Origin: Bacillota bacterium
GTDB lineage: Bacteria; Bacillota_I; Bacilli_A; RFN20; CAG-826
Assembly: GCA_030834445.1 (NCBI GenBank)
Contig: JAURFC010000004.1
Location: forward strand, 1 to 50,074
DNA length: 50,074 nucleotides
Reading direction: 5' to 3'
Position numbers and translations under genes: made by a program. Position 1 is the stretch's first letter. Each line of letters starts with the position of its first letter. Below, in pieces: positions 221 to 10,523 of the stretch. The notes under the pieces are model-generated. The model had not been told where the DNA came from and searched no databases. It saw only the letters and a list, made by a program, of their open reading frames with translations.

Positions 221-1531
221 ATGGAAAAGAAGACGAAATCTATAGATTTAATCTATGATTTAAATGATAAACCAAAATCTAAAAAAGATTTAATCATATA
301 TACCTTACAGTGGATTATGATTATGTTTTATCCGGTTGTATGGGGTTATTCGATTGTTGGCTTAGGGTTAAATCTTACTGGTGATGAATTGGGACTTTAC
401 ATGATAAGAGTTGTTTTTATGATTGGAGTTACTACTTTAGTCCAAGTCTCTTTTGGTCATAGGTTATCAATGATATCAGGACCAAATATTATTCCTTCTT
501 TAGCGATTGTTGCTGCATTTGCTATTGGTGGAAAATCTTATGCACTTGCATCATTTAATGCGTATATCATTGCAGGGCTTATCGTTGCTATCTTAGGTTT
601 TCTAGGTGTTTTTAGTAAATTAAGCAAGATTTGGACACCTTTAGTATCTGGATCGATGATTATGATGGTTGGTTTATCTACAAGTTCTGTTGGGATTAAC
701 CTAATATCTGGGGATAGTGCTAATTATGGTTTTTATGTCGGTATATTTTTAGCTATTTTTTGTGGCTACTTATCGATTAAAGGTAAAGGATTACTAGCAA
801 CTATACCTGTATTATTAACAATAGTGATTGGTTATTTAATCTTTATCATTACCGGAAACTTTAATTGGGCATTAGTTAGAAGTATGCCAGTCATAACACT
901 TCCTAAATTATTTCCTTATGGTACAGCATTTCCACCACTTGATTTAATTATCGTGATGATTATCGTTAATATTTTTTCTGCGATCAACTTATATGGAAAT
1001 GTTCAAGGATATTCAAGCATTATCGGTGCTAAACAAACGCCAAAAGATGAAAAAAGATACTTTTCATTTTTTGGGTTATTCGAAGGTGTTTTACCTTCAA
1101 TCTTTGGTGTTTCAAGTCATGTAGCATATGGTGAAAATTTAGGATTTGTTTTACTCACTAAAGTTGCATCAAGAATCTTTATCATTATAGCGAGTATTGC
1201 ATTTATCCTCATGAGTTTCTTTGGAAACATTGGTGGTATTATGGCAGCTATGCCAGCAGCTGTTGCTGGTGCAGTGCTTTTAGGGGTTGCATCCACTTTA
1301 ATTGGTATTGGGGCAAAACAATGGATCACAAGTAAAACTTTTGAAACTAGAGAAATATTTATTGTTGGCTTTTCAATATTTCTAGCATATGGTTTAAGTG
1401 TATTATCTGATAGTTTTTATGACAGTATCCCAAGACTTGTGGGAACACTATTTAAAAATCCAGTGATTACAGTGATTATGATATCTGTATTATTAGAACA
1501 AGTTATTTTTAAAGAATTTAGAAAGGAATGA
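221..1531 (+). CDS. NCS2-like (xanthine/uracil-type) permease
   Basis: 436 aa polytopic protein; RBS aaaagaggt upstream; sits in a nucleobase/ureide gene cluster. Confidence 0.7.
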   Translation: MEKKTKSIDLIYDLNDKPKSKKDLIIYTLQWIMIMFYPVVWGYSIVGLGLNLTGDELGLYMIRVVFMIGVTTLVQVSFGHRLSMISGPNIIPSLAIVAAFAIGGKSYALASFNAYIIAGLIVAILGFLGVFSKLSKIWTPLVSGSMIMMVGLSTSSVGINLISGDSANYGFYVGIFLAIFCGYLSIKGKGLLATIPVLLTIVIGYLIFIITGNFNWALVRSMPVITLPKLFPYGTAFPPLDLIIVMIIVNIFSAINLYGNVQGYSSIIGAKQTPKDEKRYFSFFGLFEGVLPSIFGVSSHVAYGENLGFVLLTKVASRIFIIIASIAFILMSFFGNIGGIMAAMPAAVAGAVLLGVASTLIGIGAKQWITSKTFETREIFIVGFSIFLAYGLSVLSDSFYDSIPRLVGTLFKNPVITVIMISVLLEQVIFKEFRKE

Positions 1532-1535
1532 TTCT

Positions 1536-2390
1536 ATGAAAAACATGAGATCTTATGAAGCATTTTATGAAGAAAATAGAGAAAAAATGCTTGAAAAAGT
1601 AAATGAGGCATATGAGTATTTTAAAAAAACAAAAACGTATGCATTTCCAAGATGGTTATATGGTAATCCTATAGGGAAAACCATGACATTAGAAGTGGAA
1701 GATAATCCTACATTTGGTGAAACAGCATATATCGAAATGGATATGGCAAGAACAGCGTTTTTATCCATTGACATGCAAACAGATTTTTGTGGCAAAAAAG
1801 GATATGTAGATGTGATGGGATATGATCTATCGCTTACAGCTAAGGCCTTGGGTCCGATTAAAAATGCACTTGATGTTGTAAGAACAACCGAAATGAAGGT
1901 TGTTCATACAAGAGAAGGACATGATCCTGATTTATCAGATGCACCTTTTAATAAAATTCTTAGAAGTAAGATTATTGGTAAAGGTGTAGGAATTGGTGAA
2001 ACTCCAGAAAATGGACTGGGAAGACTTCTAGTTCGTGGTGAGAAAAACTGGGATATCCATGAAAGTGTTTATCCAATAGCTGGTGAATATGTTGTTGATA
2101 AAGCAGGTAAAGGTGCTTTTGGTTCATCAACACTTCATATGTTGTTAAAAAATTTAGGTGTGACCCATTTAATCATTTCAGGGATTACCACTGATGTATG
2201 TGTACATACCATCATGCGTGAAGCTAATGATTATGGATATTGGTGTATTTTAATGAAAGATGGCACAGGAGCAACCGATCAAGGTAACCATGAAGCTGCG
2301 ATTAAATCAGTTAAGATGCAAGGTGGCGTTTTTGGGAATGTTACTGACTCTAGTAAAGTGATTAAGGCAATCAAAGAAGCGATAAAGTGA
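1536..2390 (+). CDS. Isochorismatase-superfamily cysteine hydrolase, biuret hydrolase (BiuH)-like
   Basis: Catalytic D (SIDMQTDFCGKKGYVD), K (VVDKAGKGAF), C (GITTDVCVHT); MQGGVFG motif as remembered for BiuH. Confidence 0.8.
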   Translation: MKNMRSYEAFYEENREKMLEKVNEAYEYFKKTKTYAFPRWLYGNPIGKTMTLEVEDNPTFGETAYIEMDMARTAFLSIDMQTDFCGKKGYVDVMGYDLSLTAKALGPIKNALDVVRTTEMKVVHTREGHDPDLSDAPFNKILRSKIIGKGVGIGETPENGLGRLLVRGEKNWDIHESVYPIAGEYVVDKAGKGAFGSSTLHMLLKNLGVTHLIISGITTDVCVHTIMREANDYGYWCILMKDGTGATDQGNHEAAIKSVKMQGGVFGNVTDSSKVIKAIKEAIK

Positions 2391-2412
2391 TATGACTATA
2401 AGAGGTGGATGT

Positions 2413-3231
2413 ATGAAACAAAAATATGAAATCGAATCTATGAGTATAAGTGTATATATGCTCATCAAGAAATTTGGTGGTATGCTTTTTGGTATTCATA
2501 AACATTCACTTCATATCAAATTATCAGGAAAACTGATAACGATTGGACATGATATTTCTGAAGGTATGCATCACATTAAACTTAAAGAACCTTTGGATTT
2601 TAAGGATTATGATTTAAGAGCAGATACACATGTCTATTTATATAACGATATATTAAACATTGGTCCATTAGCCTTTGTTTTATCAGAAGCATCGATAAAA
2701 ACATTTATACCTTATGAACATAACTATCAGTTAGATGATGAGATTGAAGATTTATCTCATCATTTAAATCATATGATAGAAAAAAAGATATCCAATCATA
2801 TTATCCATAAATATAATCAAGTGGTTATGAATTTAGTTTTTGATCATGTTAATCAGTTTATAGAAAATCAAAGTTTAGAACATGCAATAAAACTATTAGG
2901 TTTAGGACCTGGTTTAACACCTTACGGGGATGATATTCTAGTTGGTTATATATTAGGTAAAAACAGTATAGGTCATCAGATTGATTGGATTGATGATCTG
3001 ATAGACTTAGCAGATCAAAAAACAAATCATCTAAGTGCACAAAACATCAAAGATACATATGAGAAAATGTATCCAATGATTTACATTCAGATGATTGAAG
3101 ATATATTTATACATAAAAAAATAGAACATGCCAAAAAACTGATGGAAATCGGTGATACCAGTGGTATTGGGATGCTTATTGGTTTTTTGCATGGCATAAA
3201 AGAAGGTGAACATAAAAATGAAAGATTATGA
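2413..3231 (+). CDS. DUF2877 protein (AllH/YlbF-like)
   Basis: LGLGPGLTPYGDDILVGY and GDTSGIGMLIG motifs; ATG at 2413 preceded by agaggtgg; ORF track starts at 2392. Confidence 0.8.
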   Translation: MKQKYEIESMSISVYMLIKKFGGMLFGIHKHSLHIKLSGKLITIGHDISEGMHHIKLKEPLDFKDYDLRADTHVYLYNDILNIGPLAFVLSEASIKTFIPYEHNYQLDDEIEDLSHHLNHMIEKKISNHIIHKYNQVVMNLVFDHVNQFIENQSLEHAIKLLGLGPGLTPYGDDILVGYILGKNSIGHQIDWIDDLIDLADQKTNHLSAQNIKDTYEKMYPMIYIQMIEDIFIHKKIEHAKKLMEIGDTSGIGMLIGFLHGIKEGEHKNERL

Positions 3232-4753
3232 GATAGTTAAGAATGCTTATTACGATTCTGTAACTTTGATGAGTACGACAGTATCGATTAAAAAAGCACT
3301 CAATTTAAAAGATTTAGTCATGTTTATGGGTACGGATATGAACAAAGACATGATGGAGTCTGTTGGTCTTTATGACAAGAAGTTTGATGATGCTACACCA
3401 AATGATTTATTAATTGGTATTGAAATGCATGAGACTATTGATGGTTGGGTTGATCAAGTTTTAGATAAACTGAGCAACAAAACCAATCAAAATCAAGATC
3501 AATCTCAAACAGTGTTTAAAACAATTTCCCAAGCTAAACAAGCAAAAGATAGTAATATCGCAATCATCAGTGTGCCTGGCATTTATGCTGCAAATGAAGC
3601 ATATAAGGCATTAGAAAATAACATGCATGTCATGTTATTTAGTGATAATGTGAGTGTTGAAGATGAAATTGGGTTAAAAGACTTAGCGATTAAAAAAGAT
3701 TTATTAGTGATGGGTCCTGATTGCGGAACCGCAATCATTAATGGTATGGGTTTATGTTTTGCAAATCAAGTGTCAAAAGGACATATTGGATTGGTTGCTG
3801 CTAGTGGAACAGGACTTCAAGAAGTAACAGTCATCATTGATCGTTTTGGTGGTGGTATTAGCCAAGCTATAGGTGTTGGTGGTAGAGATCTATCAGAAGC
3901 TGTTGGTGGAAAGATGATGCTTAAGAGCATTGATGCTTTAAGTGAAGATGATGAAACAGAAGTGATTGTATTAATTTCTAAACCTCCACACAAATCAGTT
4001 TTAGATAAGATCTTAACAAAGATCAAAGATTTAAATAAACCAGTTGTTGTTTGTTTACTTGATGCAGTTGTAAATGAAAACATTAAGGATGTTCATTTTG
4101 TATCAACATTAACTGAAGCAGCACAAAAAGCATTAGAACTTGGTGGCTTTAAAACACCAGATTTAATGACGATTGATAAAGAAACAGAAACATTAATTGA
4201 AAAAGAACAACTATTAAAAGTTAAATCTCAAGATAAGATTAAAGGGTTATTTTGCGGTGGAACTTTAACTGCTGAGACATTAAGTGTCTTAAGAGGTAAA
4301 GTTCATGATATTATAAGCAATGTAGCTAAAAAGAAAGATGAAATCATGATCAATCCTATGGAAAGTCATGGACATAATTTAGTCGATTTAGGTGATGATG
4401 TTTTCACACAAGGAAAACCTCATCCAATGATTGAACCGATGATTAGACTTGATCGTATCATCCAAGAAGCAAAAAATCCAGAAACTTCAGTGATTCTTTT
4501 AGATTTTGAACTTGGATTAGGTTCACATGAAGATCCAGTAGGTGTAACGATTGAAACCATTGAAGAAGCCTTAGCTATCGCTAAAAAGGATAACAGACAT
4601 TTAAGTTTTGTTGCTTATGTTTGTGGAACAAATAAAGATGCACAAAACTTAGAAAAATCTGAAGCAATGTTAAAAGAACATGGCGTTATTATCGCAAAAA
4701 CAAATGCACATGCAGCGCTTATTGCATCTAAGATTGTAGGAGGTAAGTTATGA
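3218..4753 (+). CDS. fdrA: FdrA-like protein (AllF-like, succinyl-CoA-synthetase-fold)
   Basis: ASGTGLQEVTVIIDRFGGGISQAIGVGGRDLSEAVGG motif; neighbours DUF2877 and DUF1116; ATG 3218 with agaaggtg RBS preferred over GTG 3206. Confidence 0.85.
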   Translation: MKDYEIVKNAYYDSVTLMSTTVSIKKALNLKDLVMFMGTDMNKDMMESVGLYDKKFDDATPNDLLIGIEMHETIDGWVDQVLDKLSNKTNQNQDQSQTVFKTISQAKQAKDSNIAIISVPGIYAANEAYKALENNMHVMLFSDNVSVEDEIGLKDLAIKKDLLVMGPDCGTAIINGMGLCFANQVSKGHIGLVAASGTGLQEVTVIIDRFGGGISQAIGVGGRDLSEAVGGKMMLKSIDALSEDDETEVIVLISKPPHKSVLDKILTKIKDLNKPVVVCLLDAVVNENIKDVHFVSTLTEAAQKALELGGFKTPDLMTIDKETETLIEKEQLLKVKSQDKIKGLFCGGTLTAETLSVLRGKVHDIISNVAKKKDEIMINPMESHGHNLVDLGDDVFTQGKPHPMIEPMIRLDRIIQEAKNPETSVILLDFELGLGSHEDPVGVTIETIEEALAIAKKDNRHLSFVAYVCGTNKDAQNLEKSEAMLKEHGVIIAKTNAHAALIASKIVGGKL

Positions 4754-6159
4754 GTATATCAAAATTATTTAGTGAAACATTAAAAGTTGTTAATGTTGGA
4801 TCTCCTAGTTTCAAAAAAGATTTTGAAACTCAAGGGCTTGATTATGTCCATCTAGAATGGAAACCACCTGCAAGTGGTGATTTAAAATTACTTTCTTTAT
4901 TAAATCAAATTAGACCTTATAGTGAACAAATAGAAAAAGCTAATGAAGAAGTAGTATCTAAAATCAAAGCAGCAGAAGCAAAATTAGTAGCTGTTAAACA
5001 AGCTAAAGATGTTATACCAAATATGACTTCACATACTATCCTACATTCAGGTCCACCGATTGCCTTTGATAACATGGTAGGACCAATGCAAGGTGCAATT
5101 ATAGGTGCCTTAATGTATGAAGGATTAGCAAAAGATGAAAAAGAAGCAACCCTTTTAGCTAAGTCTGGAAAAATAACATTTGATAGTGCTCATCACCATC
5201 AAGCTGTTGGACCAATGGCTGGTATTATATCTGCATCGATGCCAGTACATGTTTTATATAATGAAATCCATGGTAACTATAGCTATTGCACGATTAATGA
5301 AGGCTTAGGTAAAGTGCTTCGTTATGGTGCCAATAGTAATGAAGTACTTGATCGCTTAAAATTCATGGAAACAACAGTCATGCCTGTATTAAATGAAGCA
5401 GTAGAGCTTGCTAAGGGTATTGATATTAAATCAATCATCACCCAAGCGCTTCATATGGGGGATGAATGTCATAACAGAAATAAAGCATCTTCTGCGTTAT
5501 TTTTAAGAGAAGTTGCTGGATATATTGTTCAAACAAGTTTTTCTGATGAAATGAAATCAGGCACATTAAACTTTATTAAAAATAATGAGCATTACTTTTT
5601 AAATCTATCGATGCCTTATTGTAAATTAGCACTAGATAGTGCAAGACATACACCATATTCAACAGTCGTTGTCGCAATGAGCCGTAATGGCGTTGATTTT
5701 GGTATACAACTTGCACATAGTGACAAATGGTTTACTGCACCAGCTAATTATGTCAAAGGGTTAATGTTCCCTGGATTTACTGAAGATGATGCAGCACCTG
5801 ATATAGGTGATAGTGCGATTACTGAGACATGTGGTATTGGTGGGTTTGCGATGGGTGGTGCCCCTGCAATTGTTCAATTTGTAGGTGGTGTTGTTAAACA
5901 AGCTTATGATTACTCAAAAGAAATGCACGAAATCACAAGTGGAAAACATCAAGTCTTTACACTTCCACCTTTAGATTTCATGCCTACCGCTTTAGGTATC
6001 GATATCTTAAAGGTTGTAGAAACAAATATTTTACCAATTATTAATACGGGTATGGCACACAAGAAAGCTGGAGTCGGACAAGTTGGTGCTGGATTAGTTA
6101 ATCCACCAATGGCTTGTTTCGAAAAGGCACTTGAAGATTATGCAAAAGGAGTTAAGTAA
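4750..6159 (+). CDS. DUF1116 protein (AllG/YlbE-like)
   Basis: 469 aa, overlaps fdrA by 4 nt, conserved FdrA-DUF1116 context. Confidence 0.8.
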   Translation: MSISKLFSETLKVVNVGSPSFKKDFETQGLDYVHLEWKPPASGDLKLLSLLNQIRPYSEQIEKANEEVVSKIKAAEAKLVAVKQAKDVIPNMTSHTILHSGPPIAFDNMVGPMQGAIIGALMYEGLAKDEKEATLLAKSGKITFDSAHHHQAVGPMAGIISASMPVHVLYNEIHGNYSYCTINEGLGKVLRYGANSNEVLDRLKFMETTVMPVLNEAVELAKGIDIKSIITQALHMGDECHNRNKASSALFLREVAGYIVQTSFSDEMKSGTLNFIKNNEHYFLNLSMPYCKLALDSARHTPYSTVVVAMSRNGVDFGIQLAHSDKWFTAPANYVKGLMFPGFTEDDAAPDIGDSAITETCGIGGFAMGGAPAIVQFVGGVVKQAYDYSKEMHEITSGKHQVFTLPPLDFMPTALGIDILKVVETNILPIINTGMAHKKAGVGQVGAGLVNPPMACFEKALEDYAKGVK

Positions 6160-7083
6160 ATGAGAATTGTAGTCGCTTTAGGTGGTAATGCACTTGGAGA
6201 TAATCCAAGTGAGCAATTAGAATTAGTTAAACATGCAGCACAAAGTATCGTTGATTTAGCAGCAGATGGACATCAAGTTGCAGTGATTCATGGCAATGGT
6301 CCACAAGTTGGGATGATTCAAAATGCTTTTGAAACAGCACATGATAACAATGATAAAATACCTGGAATGCCACTTCCTGAATGTGGAGCCATGAGTCAAG
6401 GATATATTGGTTATCATCTACAAAATGCAGTGACCAATGCGTTATTAGAAAGAAATCTAGCAAAAAAAGTAGCAACCATTGTCACACAAACAATCGTAGA
6501 TGAAAATGACCCAGCTTTTGAAAATCCAACAAAGCCAATTGGTCGTTTTCACACAAAAGACGAATCTGAACAAATGATTAAAGAACTTGGTGTTCGTATG
6601 GTTGAAGATTCTGGAAGAGGATATCGTATTGTTGTTCCTAGTCCAAAACCGATTGATTTTGTTGAAAAAGATGTGATTAAATCATTAATTGATAGTGGTG
6701 TAATCGTCATCGCATCAGGTGGCGGTGGTATACCAGTCATCAAAACGAATAAGATTACAGGTATAAGTGCAGTCATTGATAAAGACTTTAGTGGTGCTAA
6801 ATTAGCTGAACTAATCGATGCAGATGTATTTATTATTTTAACTGGTGTTAAACGTGTTGCGATTAATTTTAATAAACCGAATGAAAAAGAATTTTCTAAT
6901 ATAAGTCTAGAAGATGCTAAACACTATATTAAACAAGGTGAATTTGGTAAAGGCAGTATGCAACCAAAAGTAGAGGCTGCCATTGCGTTTGTCAATAACA
7001 ATCCTAAAGGTAAAGCAATTATTGCGTCTTTAGAAGAAGCATCTTTAGCCATTAAAGGTGAATCAGGAACTGTGATTGGTTAA
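6160..7083 (+). CDS. arcC: Carbamate kinase
   Basis: MRIVVALGGNALGDNPSEQ...VIHGNGPQVG; SGGGGIPV; KGSMQPKVEAA motifs. Confidence 0.93.
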   Translation: MRIVVALGGNALGDNPSEQLELVKHAAQSIVDLAADGHQVAVIHGNGPQVGMIQNAFETAHDNNDKIPGMPLPECGAMSQGYIGYHLQNAVTNALLERNLAKKVATIVTQTIVDENDPAFENPTKPIGRFHTKDESEQMIKELGVRMVEDSGRGYRIVVPSPKPIDFVEKDVIKSLIDSGVIVIASGGGGIPVIKTNKITGISAVIDKDFSGAKLAELIDADVFIILTGVKRVAINFNKPNEKEFSNISLEDAKHYIKQGEFGKGSMQPKVEAAIAFVNNNPKGKAIIASLEEASLAIKGESGTVIG

Positions 7084-7090
7084 CATCTAA

Positions 7091-7124
7091 AAAAGATACG
7101 CTTAACGCTAAGTGTATCTTTTTA
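7091..7124 (+). terminator. Rho-independent terminator after carbamate kinase
   Basis: AAAGATACGCTTA-acgc-TAAGTGTATCTTTTT. Confidence 0.75.
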
Positions 7125-7154
7125 TACTGATGATAATAGATGAGGATTGATAAA

Positions 7155-8684
7155 ATGAAGATAAAATATTTTGTAAAAAGTGATTGGAACGGTTTTTTTG
7201 GACTGTTTACCAATAATTTAACGAACGTCTTAGTGATGGCAAGTTTATTAAGTGCAGTCGTTGGACTTCCTGGTAATATTGTCTATGGCAGAATATTACC
7301 AGCCGTTGGTTTTTCAATTTTAATATCATCTTTATATTATACGTTTATGGCAATCAAACTTGCTAAAAAAGAACATAGAGATGATGTGACTGCACTCCCT
7401 GCAGGCACAAGTGTTCCACACATGTTTTTAATTGTATTTTTAATTATAGGTCCAGTTTTCTGGGCGACAGGTAATGCTTATTTAGCATGGGCAGCTGGTC
7501 TGGTTTGGTCACTGCTTGAAGGAGTGATTGAATTATTAGGTAGTTTTATTGGACCAAAGGTTAGAAAGATAGTGCCTAGAGCTGCAATGCTTGGATCACT
7601 TGCTGGGGTTTCAATTACTTATATTGCATTAAACCCAGCATTTAGTGTGTTTGCAGTGCCTTATATAGGATTAGTTGCATTAGCGATTGTTTTACTTGGG
7701 TGGATTGGAAAGGTTAAAATGCCGTTTAATATCCCTGTAGGACTTGTGGCTATTATCGTTGGTGTGGCTATTGGCTGGATCAGTGGACTGATGGATGGTG
7801 CTGTTTTAGTGGATAGTTTAAGCAATATTAACATGGGTATTCCTATACCAAGTGTAAGTAGATATATCGATGGTTTTGAAGAGGCATTACCGTTTTTATT
7901 TAGTGCCATTCCTTTAGGTATCTATAATTTCTTTGAAACGATTGATAATTGTGAATCAGCAGCTGTTGCTGGTGATCACTATTCAACTAAAGAAGCGATG
8001 ATTGCTGATGGTACAACGACCATCATCGGCTCTCTTTTTGGTAATCCTTTTCCTACAGCTATATTTATTGGACATCCAGGATGGAAAGAAGCAGGTGCTA
8101 GAATTGGTTATTCCTTTTTAACAGGTATATATATATTTTTATTAACAGTATTTGGCTTATTTTCTGTTTTACTCATCGTCATCCCTGTTGTCGCAATCCT
8201 TCCAATCTTACTTTATATTGGTATTGTCATTACTACACAAGCATTTACGAGTGTTAAACATAAATATGCACCAGCTGTAGTGCTTGCAATCATCCCTGCA
8301 CTAGCAGATTGGACAAAGAATGCTGTAGATATTGCCTTAGGCACTTTAAACAGTTCTGCAGGCGATATCGGTTATAATATATTAGAAGTTGCAGGTTTAA
8401 ACTATTACGGGATGATGGGACTTGGTGCTGGAAGTATCATTGTCGGTATTATTTTAGGGTCTATTGCTGTTTATGTGATTGATCATAAGTTTATGTATGC
8501 AACGATCGTTTCATTGCTTGCGGCATTATTATCATTTTTTGGCATTGTTCACGGAACAACCGTAGGTATCAATATGAACGAGGGCATGACCATTGGCTAT
8601 ATTTTTATGGCACTTATATTTTTTGGTTATGACATCTATTATAAAAAGAAGGGAGTTTCAATGGATGAGGAAGTATCAAGTTGA
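7155..8684 (+). CDS. Second xanthine/uracil-type permease
   Basis: Polytopic ~510 aa protein; distinct from the 221-1531 permease; ATG 7155 with upstream gagg, ORF track starts at 7140. Confidence 0.65.
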   Translation: MKIKYFVKSDWNGFFGLFTNNLTNVLVMASLLSAVVGLPGNIVYGRILPAVGFSILISSLYYTFMAIKLAKKEHRDDVTALPAGTSVPHMFLIVFLIIGPVFWATGNAYLAWAAGLVWSLLEGVIELLGSFIGPKVRKIVPRAAMLGSLAGVSITYIALNPAFSVFAVPYIGLVALAIVLLGWIGKVKMPFNIPVGLVAIIVGVAIGWISGLMDGAVLVDSLSNINMGIPIPSVSRYIDGFEEALPFLFSAIPLGIYNFFETIDNCESAAVAGDHYSTKEAMIADGTTTIIGSLFGNPFPTAIFIGHPGWKEAGARIGYSFLTGIYIFLLTVFGLFSVLLIVIPVVAILPILLYIGIVITTQAFTSVKHKYAPAVVLAIIPALADWTKNAVDIALGTLNSSAGDIGYNILEVAGLNYYGMMGLGAGSIIVGIILGSIAVYVIDHKFMYATIVSLLAALLSFFGIVHGTTVGINMNEGMTIGYIFMALIFFGYDIYYKKKGVSMDEEVSS

Positions 8685-9324
8685 AGCAAAACCATTTACA
8701 TTTGATTTTGATTTAGAAAAAACAGCACTTGTTATTATTGATATGCAAAGAGATTTTTGTGAGTTTGGAGGATTTGGTGAAGCGTTGGGTAATGATATTA
8801 CTCCAACAAAATCAATCATTCCAACGGTTAGAAAAATCCTTGATCAAGCAAGAGAAAAAGACATGTTTATCATCCATACAAGAGAAGGTCATCGACCTGA
8901 TCTAAGTGATGTTCCAGCTGCGAAAAAAAGAAGATCATCTGCAATTGGTGAACAAGGACCGATGGGAAGAATCTTAATCCGCGGAGAATATGGGCATGAT
9001 ATTGTTGATGAGTTAAAACCTTTAGATGCTGAGGTAGTTATTGATAAACCAGGAAAAGGTGCTTTTTATCAAACGGATTTACATATCATCTTACAAAATA
9101 AAGGTATTGAAAGTTTAATCTTTTGTGGTGTAACGACACATGTATGTGTCCATACAACCATCAGAGAAGCAAACGATAGAGGTTATGAGTGCTTAATGAT
9201 TGAAGATGGAACTGCAGCTTTTGATCCTAAAGATCAAGAAGCAGCCATTCGCATGATTAACCAACAAGGTGGTATCTTTGGTTGGACGACAACTTCAGAT
9301 AAACTGCTTGAGAAACTAAAATAA
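8665..9324 (+). CDS. Second isochorismatase-superfamily cysteine hydrolase, BiuH/TrtA-like
   Basis: VIIDMQRDFCEFGGFG, VVIDKPGKGAFYQTD, CGVTTHVCVHTT, NQQGGIFGW; start ATG 8665 inside the permease 3' end with gaaggga RBS. Confidence 0.8.
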   Translation: MRKYQVEAKPFTFDFDLEKTALVIIDMQRDFCEFGGFGEALGNDITPTKSIIPTVRKILDQAREKDMFIIHTREGHRPDLSDVPAAKKRRSSAIGEQGPMGRILIRGEYGHDIVDELKPLDAEVVIDKPGKGAFYQTDLHIILQNKGIESLIFCGVTTHVCVHTTIREANDRGYECLMIEDGTAAFDPKDQEAAIRMINQQGGIFGWTTTSDKLLEKLK

Positions 9325-9336
9325 AAGGAGGTCATC

Positions 9337-9960
9337 ATGGGATTACATGTATTTAAACATCCATTAATGAAACATAAAATGACTATCATTCGTGATAAAA
9401 ATTGTTCAACCAAAATGTTTAGAGAAGTGGTTGAAGAGTTAAGTGCACTGATGGTTTATGAAGTGAGTAGAGATTTCGAATTAAAAACAATTGATATCGA
9501 AACACCTATTTGTAAAACAAAAGGTTATGAAATTGTTAAAGATATTGTTTTAGTACCGATTTTAAGAGCTGGTTTAGGAATGACTCAAGGCATTCAAAAC
9601 TTGATACCAAGTGTTAAAATAGCACATGTTGGAATGTATCGTGACCACGATACACTTGAACCTAATGTTTATTATGCAAAATATCCACAAACCATTAAAG
9701 ATAGCAAATGCTTTATTTTAGATCCTTTGCTTGCAACTGGTGGAAGTGTATCTAAAGCTATAGAGTTTTTAGTTAAACAAGGTATAACAGATATTACTGT
9801 ATTATCAATCATCGGTGTTCAAACAGGTGTAGATCGAATATTAAAAACATATCCAAATGTTGAAATCTATTTAATAAATTTAGATGAAAAGTTAAATGAA
9901 GATGCTTATATTATTCCAGGATTAGGTGATGCTGGAGATCGATTATTTGGGACTAAATAA
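9337..9960 (+). CDS. upp: Uracil phosphoribosyltransferase
   Basis: VPILRAGLGMTQGI, DPLLATGGSV, IPGLGDAGDRLFGT; RBS aaaggagg. Confidence 0.95.
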   Translation: MGLHVFKHPLMKHKMTIIRDKNCSTKMFREVVEELSALMVYEVSRDFELKTIDIETPICKTKGYEIVKDIVLVPILRAGLGMTQGIQNLIPSVKIAHVGMYRDHDTLEPNVYYAKYPQTIKDSKCFILDPLLATGGSVSKAIEFLVKQGITDITVLSIIGVQTGVDRILKTYPNVEIYLINLDEKLNEDAYIIPGLGDAGDRLFGTK

Positions 9961-9984
9961 AAATGCATAAGAAGGTGAATAAAG

Positions 9985-10464
9985 ATGAATAGTCATATCG
10001 ACAAAGGCATGAGATTAGCAATTGAAAAAGCAGAAGAAACCATGAATAAAGATTTGGGTGGACCTTTTGGTGCATCTGTTATTAGTAAAAGTGGTGAAGT
10101 GATATCAGTCTCTTCAAATTCTGTATTGGGTGATCACGATCCTACTGCACATGCAGAAATCAACGCAATTAGAAAAGCATGTCAAGTATTAAAAACACAT
10201 GATTTAACAGATTATATATTAGTAACGACTTCATACCCATGCCCAATGTGTTTAGGTGCAATCATGTGGTCTAACATTAAAGAAGTGATTTATGGTTGTC
10301 GTTTAGATGATGCTAAGGGGATTGGGTTTAGAGATGACCTTATGTATGATTTTATTAAGATGGATATGAAAAACAAAGATATCTTAGTATTAGAAGAGGT
10401 ACAAAGAAATTCTTGTTTAAAATTATTTAAATCATATCATGAACAAAATAAAACTTTATATTAA
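9985..10464 (+). CDS. Nucleobase deaminase, GuaD-like (CDA family)
   Basis: DPTAHAEINAIRKAC and PCPMCLGAI zinc motifs; GuaD-like C-terminus (LFKSYHEQNKTLY). Confidence 0.8.
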   Translation: MNSHIDKGMRLAIEKAEETMNKDLGGPFGASVISKSGEVISVSSNSVLGDHDPTAHAEINAIRKACQVLKTHDLTDYILVTTSYPCPMCLGAIMWSNIKEVIYGCRLDDAKGIGFRDDLMYDFIKMDMKNKDILVLEEVQRNSCLKLFKSYHEQNKTLY

Positions 10465-10497: not shown

Positions 10498-10523
10498 AAA
10501 GCCATCATTTGATGGCTTTTTTT
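10498..10523 (+). terminator. Rho-independent terminator
   Basis: AAAGCCATCA-tt-TGATGGCTTTTTTT. Confidence 0.8.

Follow-up and report, generated by a model that had tools for sequence, protein, structure and literature searches.

A probable cyanuric acid, triuret, and biuret breakdown operon with a predicted phosphorolytic last step in a Bacillota bacterium

In this work, we focus on a gene cluster of a Bacillota bacterium (contig JAURFC010000004.1, assembly GCA_030834445.1; "the window" refers to the whole analysed stretch of 50,074 nucleotides), which is probably an operon for the breakdown of cyanuric acid, triuret, and biuret with a phosphorolytic last step. In the proposed pathway, a cyanuric acid hydrolase (AtzD, encoded on another contig) and a TrtA-like hydrolase (BiuH2) would generate 1-carboxybiuret, which would lose CO2 to give biuret, and a biuret hydrolase-like enzyme (BiuH1) would convert biuret to allophanate. 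The AllF-AllG-AllH complex would then move the carbamoyl group at the end of a carboxylated ureide onto phosphate, converting allophanate to carbamoyl phosphate and carbamate and possibly also 1-carboxybiuret to carbamoyl phosphate and allophanate, after which carbamate kinase (AllK) would form ATP from carbamoyl phosphate. Each of these reactions is a prediction, phosphorolysis above all. The first-pass annotation had proposed an ATP-yielding phosphorolysis of allophanate by AllFGH, which is plausible and partly supported: the context speaks for it (the identity of BiuH1, the presence of AtzD, the lack of matches for AtzF, AllD, allantoinase, and carboxyltransferase domains, module replacement in relatives, and the AllG lineage), whereas its choice of substrate is less secure, as clusters without BiuH point to 1-carboxybiuret or biuret as further candidates.

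Gene content and layout of the cluster

The window contains a single gene cluster extending at least from position 221 to 10464, with all genes on the forward strand in the order permease, BiuH-like hydrolase, AllH, AllF, AllG, carbamate kinase, permease, TrtA-like hydrolase, upp, and deaminase. A five-gene operon had been described at 1536–7083; these genes are all intact and co-directional at those positions, with 1-bp gaps or overlaps between them, and the interval proves too short for the unit, which includes a second BiuH/TrtA-like hydrolase. The five genes encode BiuH1, a cysteine hydrolase (1536–2390); AllH (DUF2877; 2392–3231; Pfam AllH, 61 bits, cut-off 25); the succinyl-CoA synthetase-like subunit AllF/FdrA (3206–4753, start provisional; NCBIfam FdrA, 488 bits, cut-off 433; PDB 3dmy, FdrA); AllG (DUF1116; 4750–6159; Pfam AllG, 307 bits, cut-off 27); and AllK (6160–7083; TIGR00746 arcC, 374 bits, cut-off 358). 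AllF, AllG, AllH, and carbamate kinase are therefore co-encoded, as in the oxamic transcarbamylase of the E. coli type. A predicted model of AllH (pLDDT 72.5, moderate confidence, built from 5 sequences) gave no significant match in the PDB, where FdrA (3dmy) and the AllG-like 3clq are the only structures for components of the complex. The order of the five genes is identical in two related loci, L005 and L006, where most proteins are 75–86% identical to those of the window (AllH about 44%, carbamate kinase 69–77%); because this order is kept in both, the neighbourhood is not a product of chance.

Upstream of BiuH1 lies an NCS2-family permease (221–1531; Pfam Xan_ur_permease, 162 bits), a candidate importer of biuret or cyanurate, homologues of which (65–81% identical) are found directly 5′ of BiuH1 in L005, L006, L007, L011, and L015. 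Positions 1–113, also on the forward strand, encode the C-terminal tail of a transporter, Transp433, which is truncated by the contig start and whose translation (LSEGFKISIFEVIKGNSKFVLITASLVGVLALIVGIL) corresponds to the end of L005:7284-8585; in relatives, the Transp433 gene is located between atzD and the permease. Downstream of AllK, a second permease (Perm2, 7140–8684) is a candidate triuret importer that gave no match in a Pfam profile search; two homologues (57.6% and 43%), annotated as xanthine permeases, flank the BiuH2-like gene of Peptoclostridium. It is followed by BiuH2 (8665–9324), uracil phosphoribosyltransferase (upp, 9337–9960; TIGR01091, 260 bits, cut-off 208), and a cytidine/guanine-deaminase-like protein (9985–10464; Pfam dCMP_cyt_deam_1, 82 bits). 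The upp gene also occurs in the clusters of L005, L006, and L007. A terminator-like hairpin (10498–10519, forward strand; a stem of 9 bp and, after it, a stretch of T, identified by pattern match only) ends the gene run.

BiuH1, BiuH2, and AtzD

BiuH1 is an isochorismatase-family hydrolase with NCBIfam BiuH as its top profile. Its score of 279 bits lies under the 370-bit cut-off of the BiuH equivalog NF050097, as do those of other members of a divergent subfamily with a long N-terminus (about 70 extra residues in BiuH1), including one that adjoins AtzF (273 bits). The resemblance to BiuH noted in the first-pass annotation is borne out both by the closest PDB relative (BiuH 6AZO, 239 bits, versus 145 for TrtA 6xix) and by the active site. 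In BiuH, catalysis depends on Asp36-Lys142-Cys175, and Phe41, Lys145, and Gln215 contact the substrate (numbering of PMC5806882); the equivalents are all present in BiuH1 (D79, K189, C222, F84, K192, and Q262), and its second shell is of the BiuH rather than the TrtA type (Y90, Y96, D220, and V265, corresponding to Tyr47, Tyr53, Asp173, and Val218). When 394 genomes from the order to which G394 belongs were surveyed for BiuH1, one more BiuH-family match appeared, which lacks the N-terminal extension. BiuH2 is closer to TrtA (6xix, 253 bits, versus 225–231 for BiuH) and carries four of the five TrtA-type residues (Phe35, Asn41, Glu160, Gln202, and Ile205; PMC7948467), with His at the Glu160 position, whereas the hydrolases of E. 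coli (L081) and Photobacterium (L086) carry all five. Judged from its sequence, BiuH2 is a candidate triuret hydrolase.

An AtzD-family gene (482 bits) is located at the end of another contig of the same genome, C25, where the contig end removes the last approximately 28 profile positions. It is divergent from a PucR gene, likewise in L006, and synteny with two relatives places atzD just upstream of the window cluster. As the assembly is a fragmented metagenome-assembled genome (93% complete), this link between C25 and C20 relies on synteny. The C25 protein possesses the conserved Ser226-Lys156 dyad and the cyanurate-type Arg188, where barbiturases have Gln (PMC4051656). AtzD copies score 502 bits to cyanuric acid hydrolase versus 311 to barbiturase, and the full-length AtzD proteins of L006 and Citrobacter exceed the cut-off (360) of the cyanuric acid amidohydrolase equivalog NF052395, with 546 and 580 bits. 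Taken together, the residue, the PDB scores, and the equivalog model led us to reject a barbiturase. An AtzD fragment on contig C11 was rejected as a second atzD: its end sequence is found on C25 as well, and an assembly-type junction joins the fragment to the N-terminal part of a further BiuH2-like gene.

Substrate of the AllFGH complex

In relatives, members of the BiuH1 subfamily adjoin AllHFGK, urea-carboxylase-type domains (in one case with a Na+-pumping decarboxylase), or a true allophanate hydrolase. AllHFGK lies between BiuH1 and upp in L006, the same slot in L007, a Clostridiales locus, is occupied by CT_C_D and CT_A_B domains of the urea-carboxylase type together with OadG, a biotin carrier, and OadB, and the BiuH1 homologue of Natronorubrum adjoins AtzF. 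Because one BiuH subfamily adjoins these three modules, allophanate is likely the intermediate common to the clusters. Among 13 genomes with BiuH1, 7 encode AllG and 6 CT_C_D (both in 1, neither in 1), and none has an AtzF above cut-off; AllG is present in all 5 genomes with AtzD.

AllHFGK also occurs without an adjacent BiuH: it is paired with AtzD on Citrobacter and Klebsiella plasmids and, in E. coli and Photobacterium, with a TrtA-type hydrolase and a lone AH_C domain. Of the complete E. coli genomes, 28% carry the latter operon, among them that of a BL21 derivative, T7 Express lysY; it is absent at the corresponding site in K-12 MG1655. In the tree, the AllG proteins of the AtzD-linked and TrtA-linked clusters are sisters (94/85). 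Complexes related to that of the window therefore cannot rely on allophanate made by BiuH, which suggests that 1-carboxybiuret (or biuret) may be phosphorolysed instead of, or besides, allophanate. In the stricter version of this idea, AllFGH would act on 1-carboxybiuret only, BiuH1 would salvage spontaneously formed biuret, and allophanate would decay to urea and CO2. Both AtzD and TrtA produce carboxybiuret (PMC7948467), which retains the acyl-urea and carboxylate form of oxalurate; however, no enzyme would then be left for allophanate, although relatives keep an allophanate module beside the same BiuH1, and we consider such exclusivity unlikely.

Somewhat less likely still is that AllFGH works as a conventional oxamic transcarbamylase on oxalurate taken up by the cell, in a scavenging cluster that joins biuret and oxalurate use. 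Activity of the family, including E. coli AllFGH, has been demonstrated only with oxalurate/oxamate (PMC11326118), and a nitrifier study takes co-location of biuH and allFGHK as two pathways (PMC12625717). Against this, the first-pass annotation had seen no allantoinase or ureidoglycolate dehydrogenase, which holds for the whole 93% complete assembly (no Ldh_2 match for the AllD family; best allantoinase match 19 bits, cut-off 358) and for L005/L006, whereas both were detected in the positive control G402; genes feeding oxalurate from allantoin, which it had named as counting against its proposal, were thus searched for and not found. The same applies to a canonical allophanate hydrolase (best AtzF match 130 bits, cut-off 511), and the assembly contains no CT_C_D match, so that the oxalurate reading, with allophanate modules replacing AllHFGK in relatives, would leave this genome without an allophanate enzyme; given 93% completeness, missing genes are no proof of absence. 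Amidases in the AllG genomes G396, G398, and G402 were rejected as hidden AtzF, being located beside GatC/GatB-like genes and far under the AtzF cut-off.

The lineage of AllG also argues against oxalurate. Every allantoin/AllD-linked AllG sampled falls into one clade of six (100/100), and the window AllG lies outside it, in a biuret-linked group with 12 group-specific positions that partly follow phylogeny; group-specific residues of the window AllG include N242, N279, and H281, where E. coli AllG has Q188, T225, and Q227. The window AllG begins with a stretch of about 50 residues that is equivalent to the C-terminal segment of FdrA in E. coli (residues 7–54 match FdrA profile positions 507–554). 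This extension is weakened as a substrate marker because an AllD-linked AllF-AllG fusion of E. faecalis also aligns with the window AllG from end to end.

Phosphorolysis of biuret to carbamoyl phosphate and waste urea would account for the BiuH-less clusters if carboxybiuret first decarboxylates, but BiuH1, encoded in the same operon, would be a competitor for biuret, which lacks the carboxylate of oxalurate, and this reading appears improbable. An operon for a pyrimidine-derived ureide (e.g., one that turns barbiturate into ureidomalonate, in partnership with upp and the deaminase), to which the NCS2 permease, upp, the deaminase, and the homology of AtzD to barbiturase might point, is the most improbable, given the cyanurate-type features of AtzD described above and a BiuH1 with BiuH-type residues and BiuH, not RutB, as its closest matches. 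Overall, we tentatively favour allophanate as the substrate of the window AllFGH, at somewhat below even confidence; 1-carboxybiuret, an option that may overlap with allophanate, and any other compound are each possible but not likely, and there is only a slight chance that it is biuret.

Relation to known systems and significance

In E. coli, AllFGH-AllK constitutes an oxamic transcarbamylase with a catabolic carbamate kinase (PMC11326118, PMC9843812). The window shares its three subunits and kinase and, as proposed, its chemistry, in which an acyl-urea carbamoyl group passes to phosphate and then yields ATP. Unlike the E. coli genes (F-G-H-K), those of the window are ordered H-F-G-K, the segment of about 50 residues is shifted from the AllF C-terminus to the AllG N-terminus, AllG belongs to a separate lineage, and the partners are BiuH, AtzD, and TrtA rather than allantoin genes. 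The yahE-yahF-yahG-yahI-yahJ operon of E. coli K-12 has the same H-F-G-K order and an identical AllF/AllG boundary (46% identity for AllF, 45% for AllG), but its partner is the amidohydrolase YahJ, and YahG deviates from the biuret-linked AllG group at some of the 12 positions.

Cyanuric acid is mineralized via AtzD-AtzEG-AtzH-AtzF or AtzD-BiuH-AtzF. The AtzD and BiuH steps are also encoded in the genome of the window, which differs in having AllHFGK in place of an allophanate hydrolase (not found in the assembly) and in a predicted ATP gain. The triuret pathway proceeds via TrtA-(TrtB)-BiuH-AtzF (PMC7948467); the window BiuH2 is nearest to TrtA, with the His for Glu160 exchange, and AllHFGK again takes the place of AtzF. 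In 2025, co-location of biuH and allFGHK was published for comammox Nitrospira and ammonia-oxidising archaea in a study that treats biuret and oxalurate use as separate and in whose relevant passages phosphorolysis in the biuret series is not proposed (PMC12625717). In these clusters, BiuH adjoins AllFGHK as in the window, the archaeal BiuH has a likewise extended N-terminus, and the comammox clusters retain AtzF (PMC12625717). AtzF was not found in the genome of the window.

Phosphorolysis by an AllFGH-type complex and carbamate kinase may, we tentatively suggest, represent a second, energy-conserving mode of allophanate and/or 1-carboxybiuret breakdown, with the module spread among Mycoplasmatota, Clostridia, archaea, and enterobacterial plasmids, and with a Na+-pumping decarboxylase plus urea-carboxylase-type carboxyltransferase as its Clostridiales substitute, converting allophanate to urea and CO2. 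A search of the literature outside subscription journals found nothing on allophanate phosphorolysis or an allophanate-driven Na+ pump. In the known cyanuric acid and biuret routes, carbamoyl bonds are merely hydrolysed, or ATP is consumed (urea amidolyase). If the proposal is true, a genome-reduced anaerobe gains ATP from these same bonds. Uric acid oxidation yields triuret and cyanuric acid (PMC7948467), which would mean a natural source for the pathway in animals. For the same compound, allophanate, the Na+-pump variant would add a second new route of energy conservation. Furthermore, AllFGH would form a family of carbamoyltransferases that act by phosphorolysis on several acyl-urea substrates, and the six-gene E. 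coli operon would be assigned a predicted role, triuret use.

The gene run and its hydrolases

The five genes assigned to 1536-7083 by the first-pass annotation are all present, intact, and co-directional, with gaps of 1 bp or short overlaps, and profile searches confirm them as a BiuH-like isochorismatase-family hydrolase (BiuH1, 1536-2390), AllH (DUF2877), FdrA/AllF, AllG (DUF1116), and carbamate kinase (AllK). However, the run extends beyond this interval on both sides: an NCS2 permease (221-1531, profile search) lies upstream, and a second permease, another BiuH/TrtA-like hydrolase (BiuH2, 8665-9324), the uracil phosphoribosyltransferase gene upp (9337-9960), and a deaminase follow downstream, before a terminator-like hairpin starting at 10498. 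The upp gene regularly accompanies BiuH1 clusters (here and at L005, L006, and L007 in other genomes), and no role in the proposed pathway accounts for it.

The nearest PDB relative of BiuH1 is biuret hydrolase (239 bits), as had been proposed, with triuret hydrolase lower (145 bits); its score is under the BiuH equivalog cut-off. D79, K189, and C222 match the BiuH catalytic positions (PMC5806882), and Y90, Y96, D220, Q262, and V265 are BiuH-type at the second-shell positions that distinguish biuret from triuret hydrolase (PMC7948467). BiuH1 falls in a subfamily with a long N-terminus, whose members occur in Mycoplasmatota, Bacillota, Dehalococcoidia, Nitrosospira, and ammonia-oxidising archaea. 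BiuH2 is nearest to TrtA (253 bits) and has the TrtA-type residue at four of five positions; at the fifth, His stands in for Glu160. In Nitrosospira (L008, L016), the BiuH1 adjoining urea carboxylase has Glu at the equivalent of the substrate-binding Gln215, and its substrate may differ, possibly being a guanidinium-type ureide.

Genomic partners of BiuH1

At the loci closest to the window, L005 (Acholeplasmataceae, BiuH1 84% identical) and L006 (Tenericutes, 81%), an AtzD-family ring amidohydrolase gene with a divergent PucR regulator ahead of it is followed by a transporter, NCS2 permease, BiuH1, AllH, AllF, AllG, AllK, and later upp. The same transporter is cut in the window, which begins within its gene and retains the tail in its first 113 bases. 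An AtzD gene in the window's own genome (482 bits), divergent from a PucR gene, lies at the end of contig C25, where its last ~28 profile positions are lost. Given this contig end, the cut transporter, and the synteny with L005 and L006, the simplest reading is that C25 and the window contig belong to a single locus interrupted by an assembly gap. At position 188, the AtzD copies carry Arg in place of the Gln of barbiturases (PMC4051656); the L006 copy scores 502 bits to cyanuric acid hydrolase versus 311 to barbiturase, and it and the Citrobacter copies exceed the NCBI cyanuric acid amidohydrolase equivalog cut-off. AllG is present in all five AtzD-positive genomes, and AtzD, BiuH1, and AllFG share one contig in L005, L006, and L009. 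The window's genome also holds a second set, with PucR, a permease like the second one of the window (62%), and the start of a BiuH2-like gene on C11 (L020:1-1812) and AllF-G-K on C7 (L003:522-4380), matching a Peptoclostridium plasmid cluster (L080); C11 ends in a chimeric junction to an AtzD fragment that is also on C25.

Among 13 genomes carrying BiuH1, AllG occurs in seven (in one, Gudongella, inside an allantoin cluster), the CT_C_D domain in six, both in one, neither in one, and allophanate hydrolase (AtzF) above its cut-off in none. The one-sided hypergeometric p of 0.025 (43/1716) for avoidance between AllG and CT_C_D assumes independent genomes, which these are not, and comes from a small sample. 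The slot between BiuH1 and upp is occupied in L006 by AllHFGK and in L007 (Clostridiales RUG099) by CT_C_D, CT_A_B, an OadG-like protein, a biotin-carrier protein, and OadB. The L007 CT_C_D and CT_A_B proteins are of urea-carboxylase type (372 and 446 bits versus 57 and 172 for 5-oxoprolinase models), with urea carboxylase as top PDB match. No biotin carboxylase domain was found in this cluster (L007:10968-14875; L074:6394-10301), which looks like a putative Na+-pumping allophanate decarboxylase. Dehalococcoidia L012 (near copy L010/L073) has the order carbamate kinase-BiuH1-CT_C_D-CT_A_B, a complete urea carboxylase adjoins BiuH1 in Nitrosospira, and in Natronorubrum a plasmid-borne homologue of BiuH1 (61%) precedes an allophanate hydrolase above its cut-off. 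Allophanate is thus the predicted common denominator of the modules beside BiuH1. An archaeal BiuH1 locus (L013:2273-3727, 6664-8275) carries UbiD-like, creatininase-like, and AIR-carboxylase (PurE-like) genes, the last of which may act on N-carboxylated compounds.

The AllFGH lineage and clusters without BiuH

In the AllG tree, the six-member allantoin group (E. coli, Salmonella, Proteus, Gudongella, E. faecalis with AllD, and genome G345; allantoin-gene-linked or in their clade) forms one clade at 100/100, and every AtzD-, BiuH-, or TrtA-linked AllG falls outside it. Twelve AllG columns, reflecting phylogeny in part, separate the groups (including N242/Q, N279/T, and H281/Q), against only two in AllF. 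A ~50-residue segment that is C-terminal in E. coli FdrA is N-terminal on the window AllG; E. coli YahG has the same arrangement, and its operon is likewise ordered H-F-G-K. At L068:5924-12572, a divergent AllF-AllG pair accompanies AllH-like, acetate-kinase-family (326 bits), KDPG aldolase-like, and sugar kinase-like genes, which suggests that AllFGH relatives may make other acyl phosphates.

Enterobacterial plasmids carry transporter-AtzD-NCS2-AllH-F-G-K without adjacent BiuH; in two of them, atzF lies ~5 kb off, past an IS element. Citrobacter/Klebsiella plasmids (L082, L092, L094) have cyanuric acid hydrolase-NCS2-AllH-F-G-K-LysR, and shower isolates are the source of several plasmids with AtzD. 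In E. coli and Photobacterium, a TrtA-type hydrolase-AllH-F-G-K cluster is accompanied by the C-terminal domain of allophanate hydrolase as a separate protein (AH_C, 143 bits). The AllG proteins of the two cluster types are closely related, the E. coli plasmid and Citrobacter copies pairing at 94/85. On P. aurescens TC1 pTC1 (L091:6986-9782), a truncated AllG and carbamate kinase adjoin atzC, with atzB nearby, a putative AllFGHK remnant on an atrazine-degradation plasmid.

Predicted substrates and the E. coli operon

E. coli AllFGH converts oxalurate and Pi to oxamate and carbamoyl phosphate (PMC11326118). The first-pass annotation proposed allophanate as substrate here, a reading that a canonical allophanate hydrolase or allantoin-pathway genes elsewhere in the genome would have contradicted. 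Within the limits of the assembly (93% complete, 36 contigs), neither was found: the best allophanate hydrolase match scores 130 bits against a cut-off of 511, the best allantoinase match 19 against 358, and no AllD-family protein or CT_C_D domain was detected; Gudongella, the positive control for the allantoin searches, has both allantoin enzymes. Since BiuH1 is present and the searches yielded no other enzyme for allophanate, this compound is the simplest choice of predicted substrate, and AllFGH would convert it with Pi to carbamoyl phosphate and carbamate. AtzD and TrtA share the product 1-carboxybiuret (PMC7948467), so in the enterobacterial AtzD clusters and the E. coli and Photobacterium TrtA clusters the AllFGH substrate is more likely to be carboxybiuret or biuret than BiuH-made allophanate. 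Carboxybiuret, which would yield carbamoyl phosphate and allophanate, is also a possible second substrate of the window AllFGH. AllK would act after each phosphorolysis.

Co-location of biuH and allFGHK in comammox Nitrospira and ammonia-oxidising archaea was published in 2025 and interpreted as biuret plus oxalurate pathways (PMC12625717). Within a partial coverage of the literature, we found no published proposal of allophanate or carboxybiuret phosphorolysis or of an allophanate Na+ pump.

The TrtA-AllHFGK-AH_C operon, with predicted function in triuret use, occurs in 1,543 of 5,426 complete E. coli genomes, mostly on the chromosome, and was listed without function in the avian E. coli tkt1 island (PMC3349570). 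At L095:5001-10965 (E. coli T7 Express lysY) and L081, it also includes a cytosine permease and LysR regulator. It is absent between ysgA and metE of K-12 MG1655, where the two genes are directly adjacent. T7 Express lysY is a BL21 derivative. Because a laboratory strain carries the operon and K-12 MG1655 lacks it at this site, the key tests are feasible in laboratory strains.
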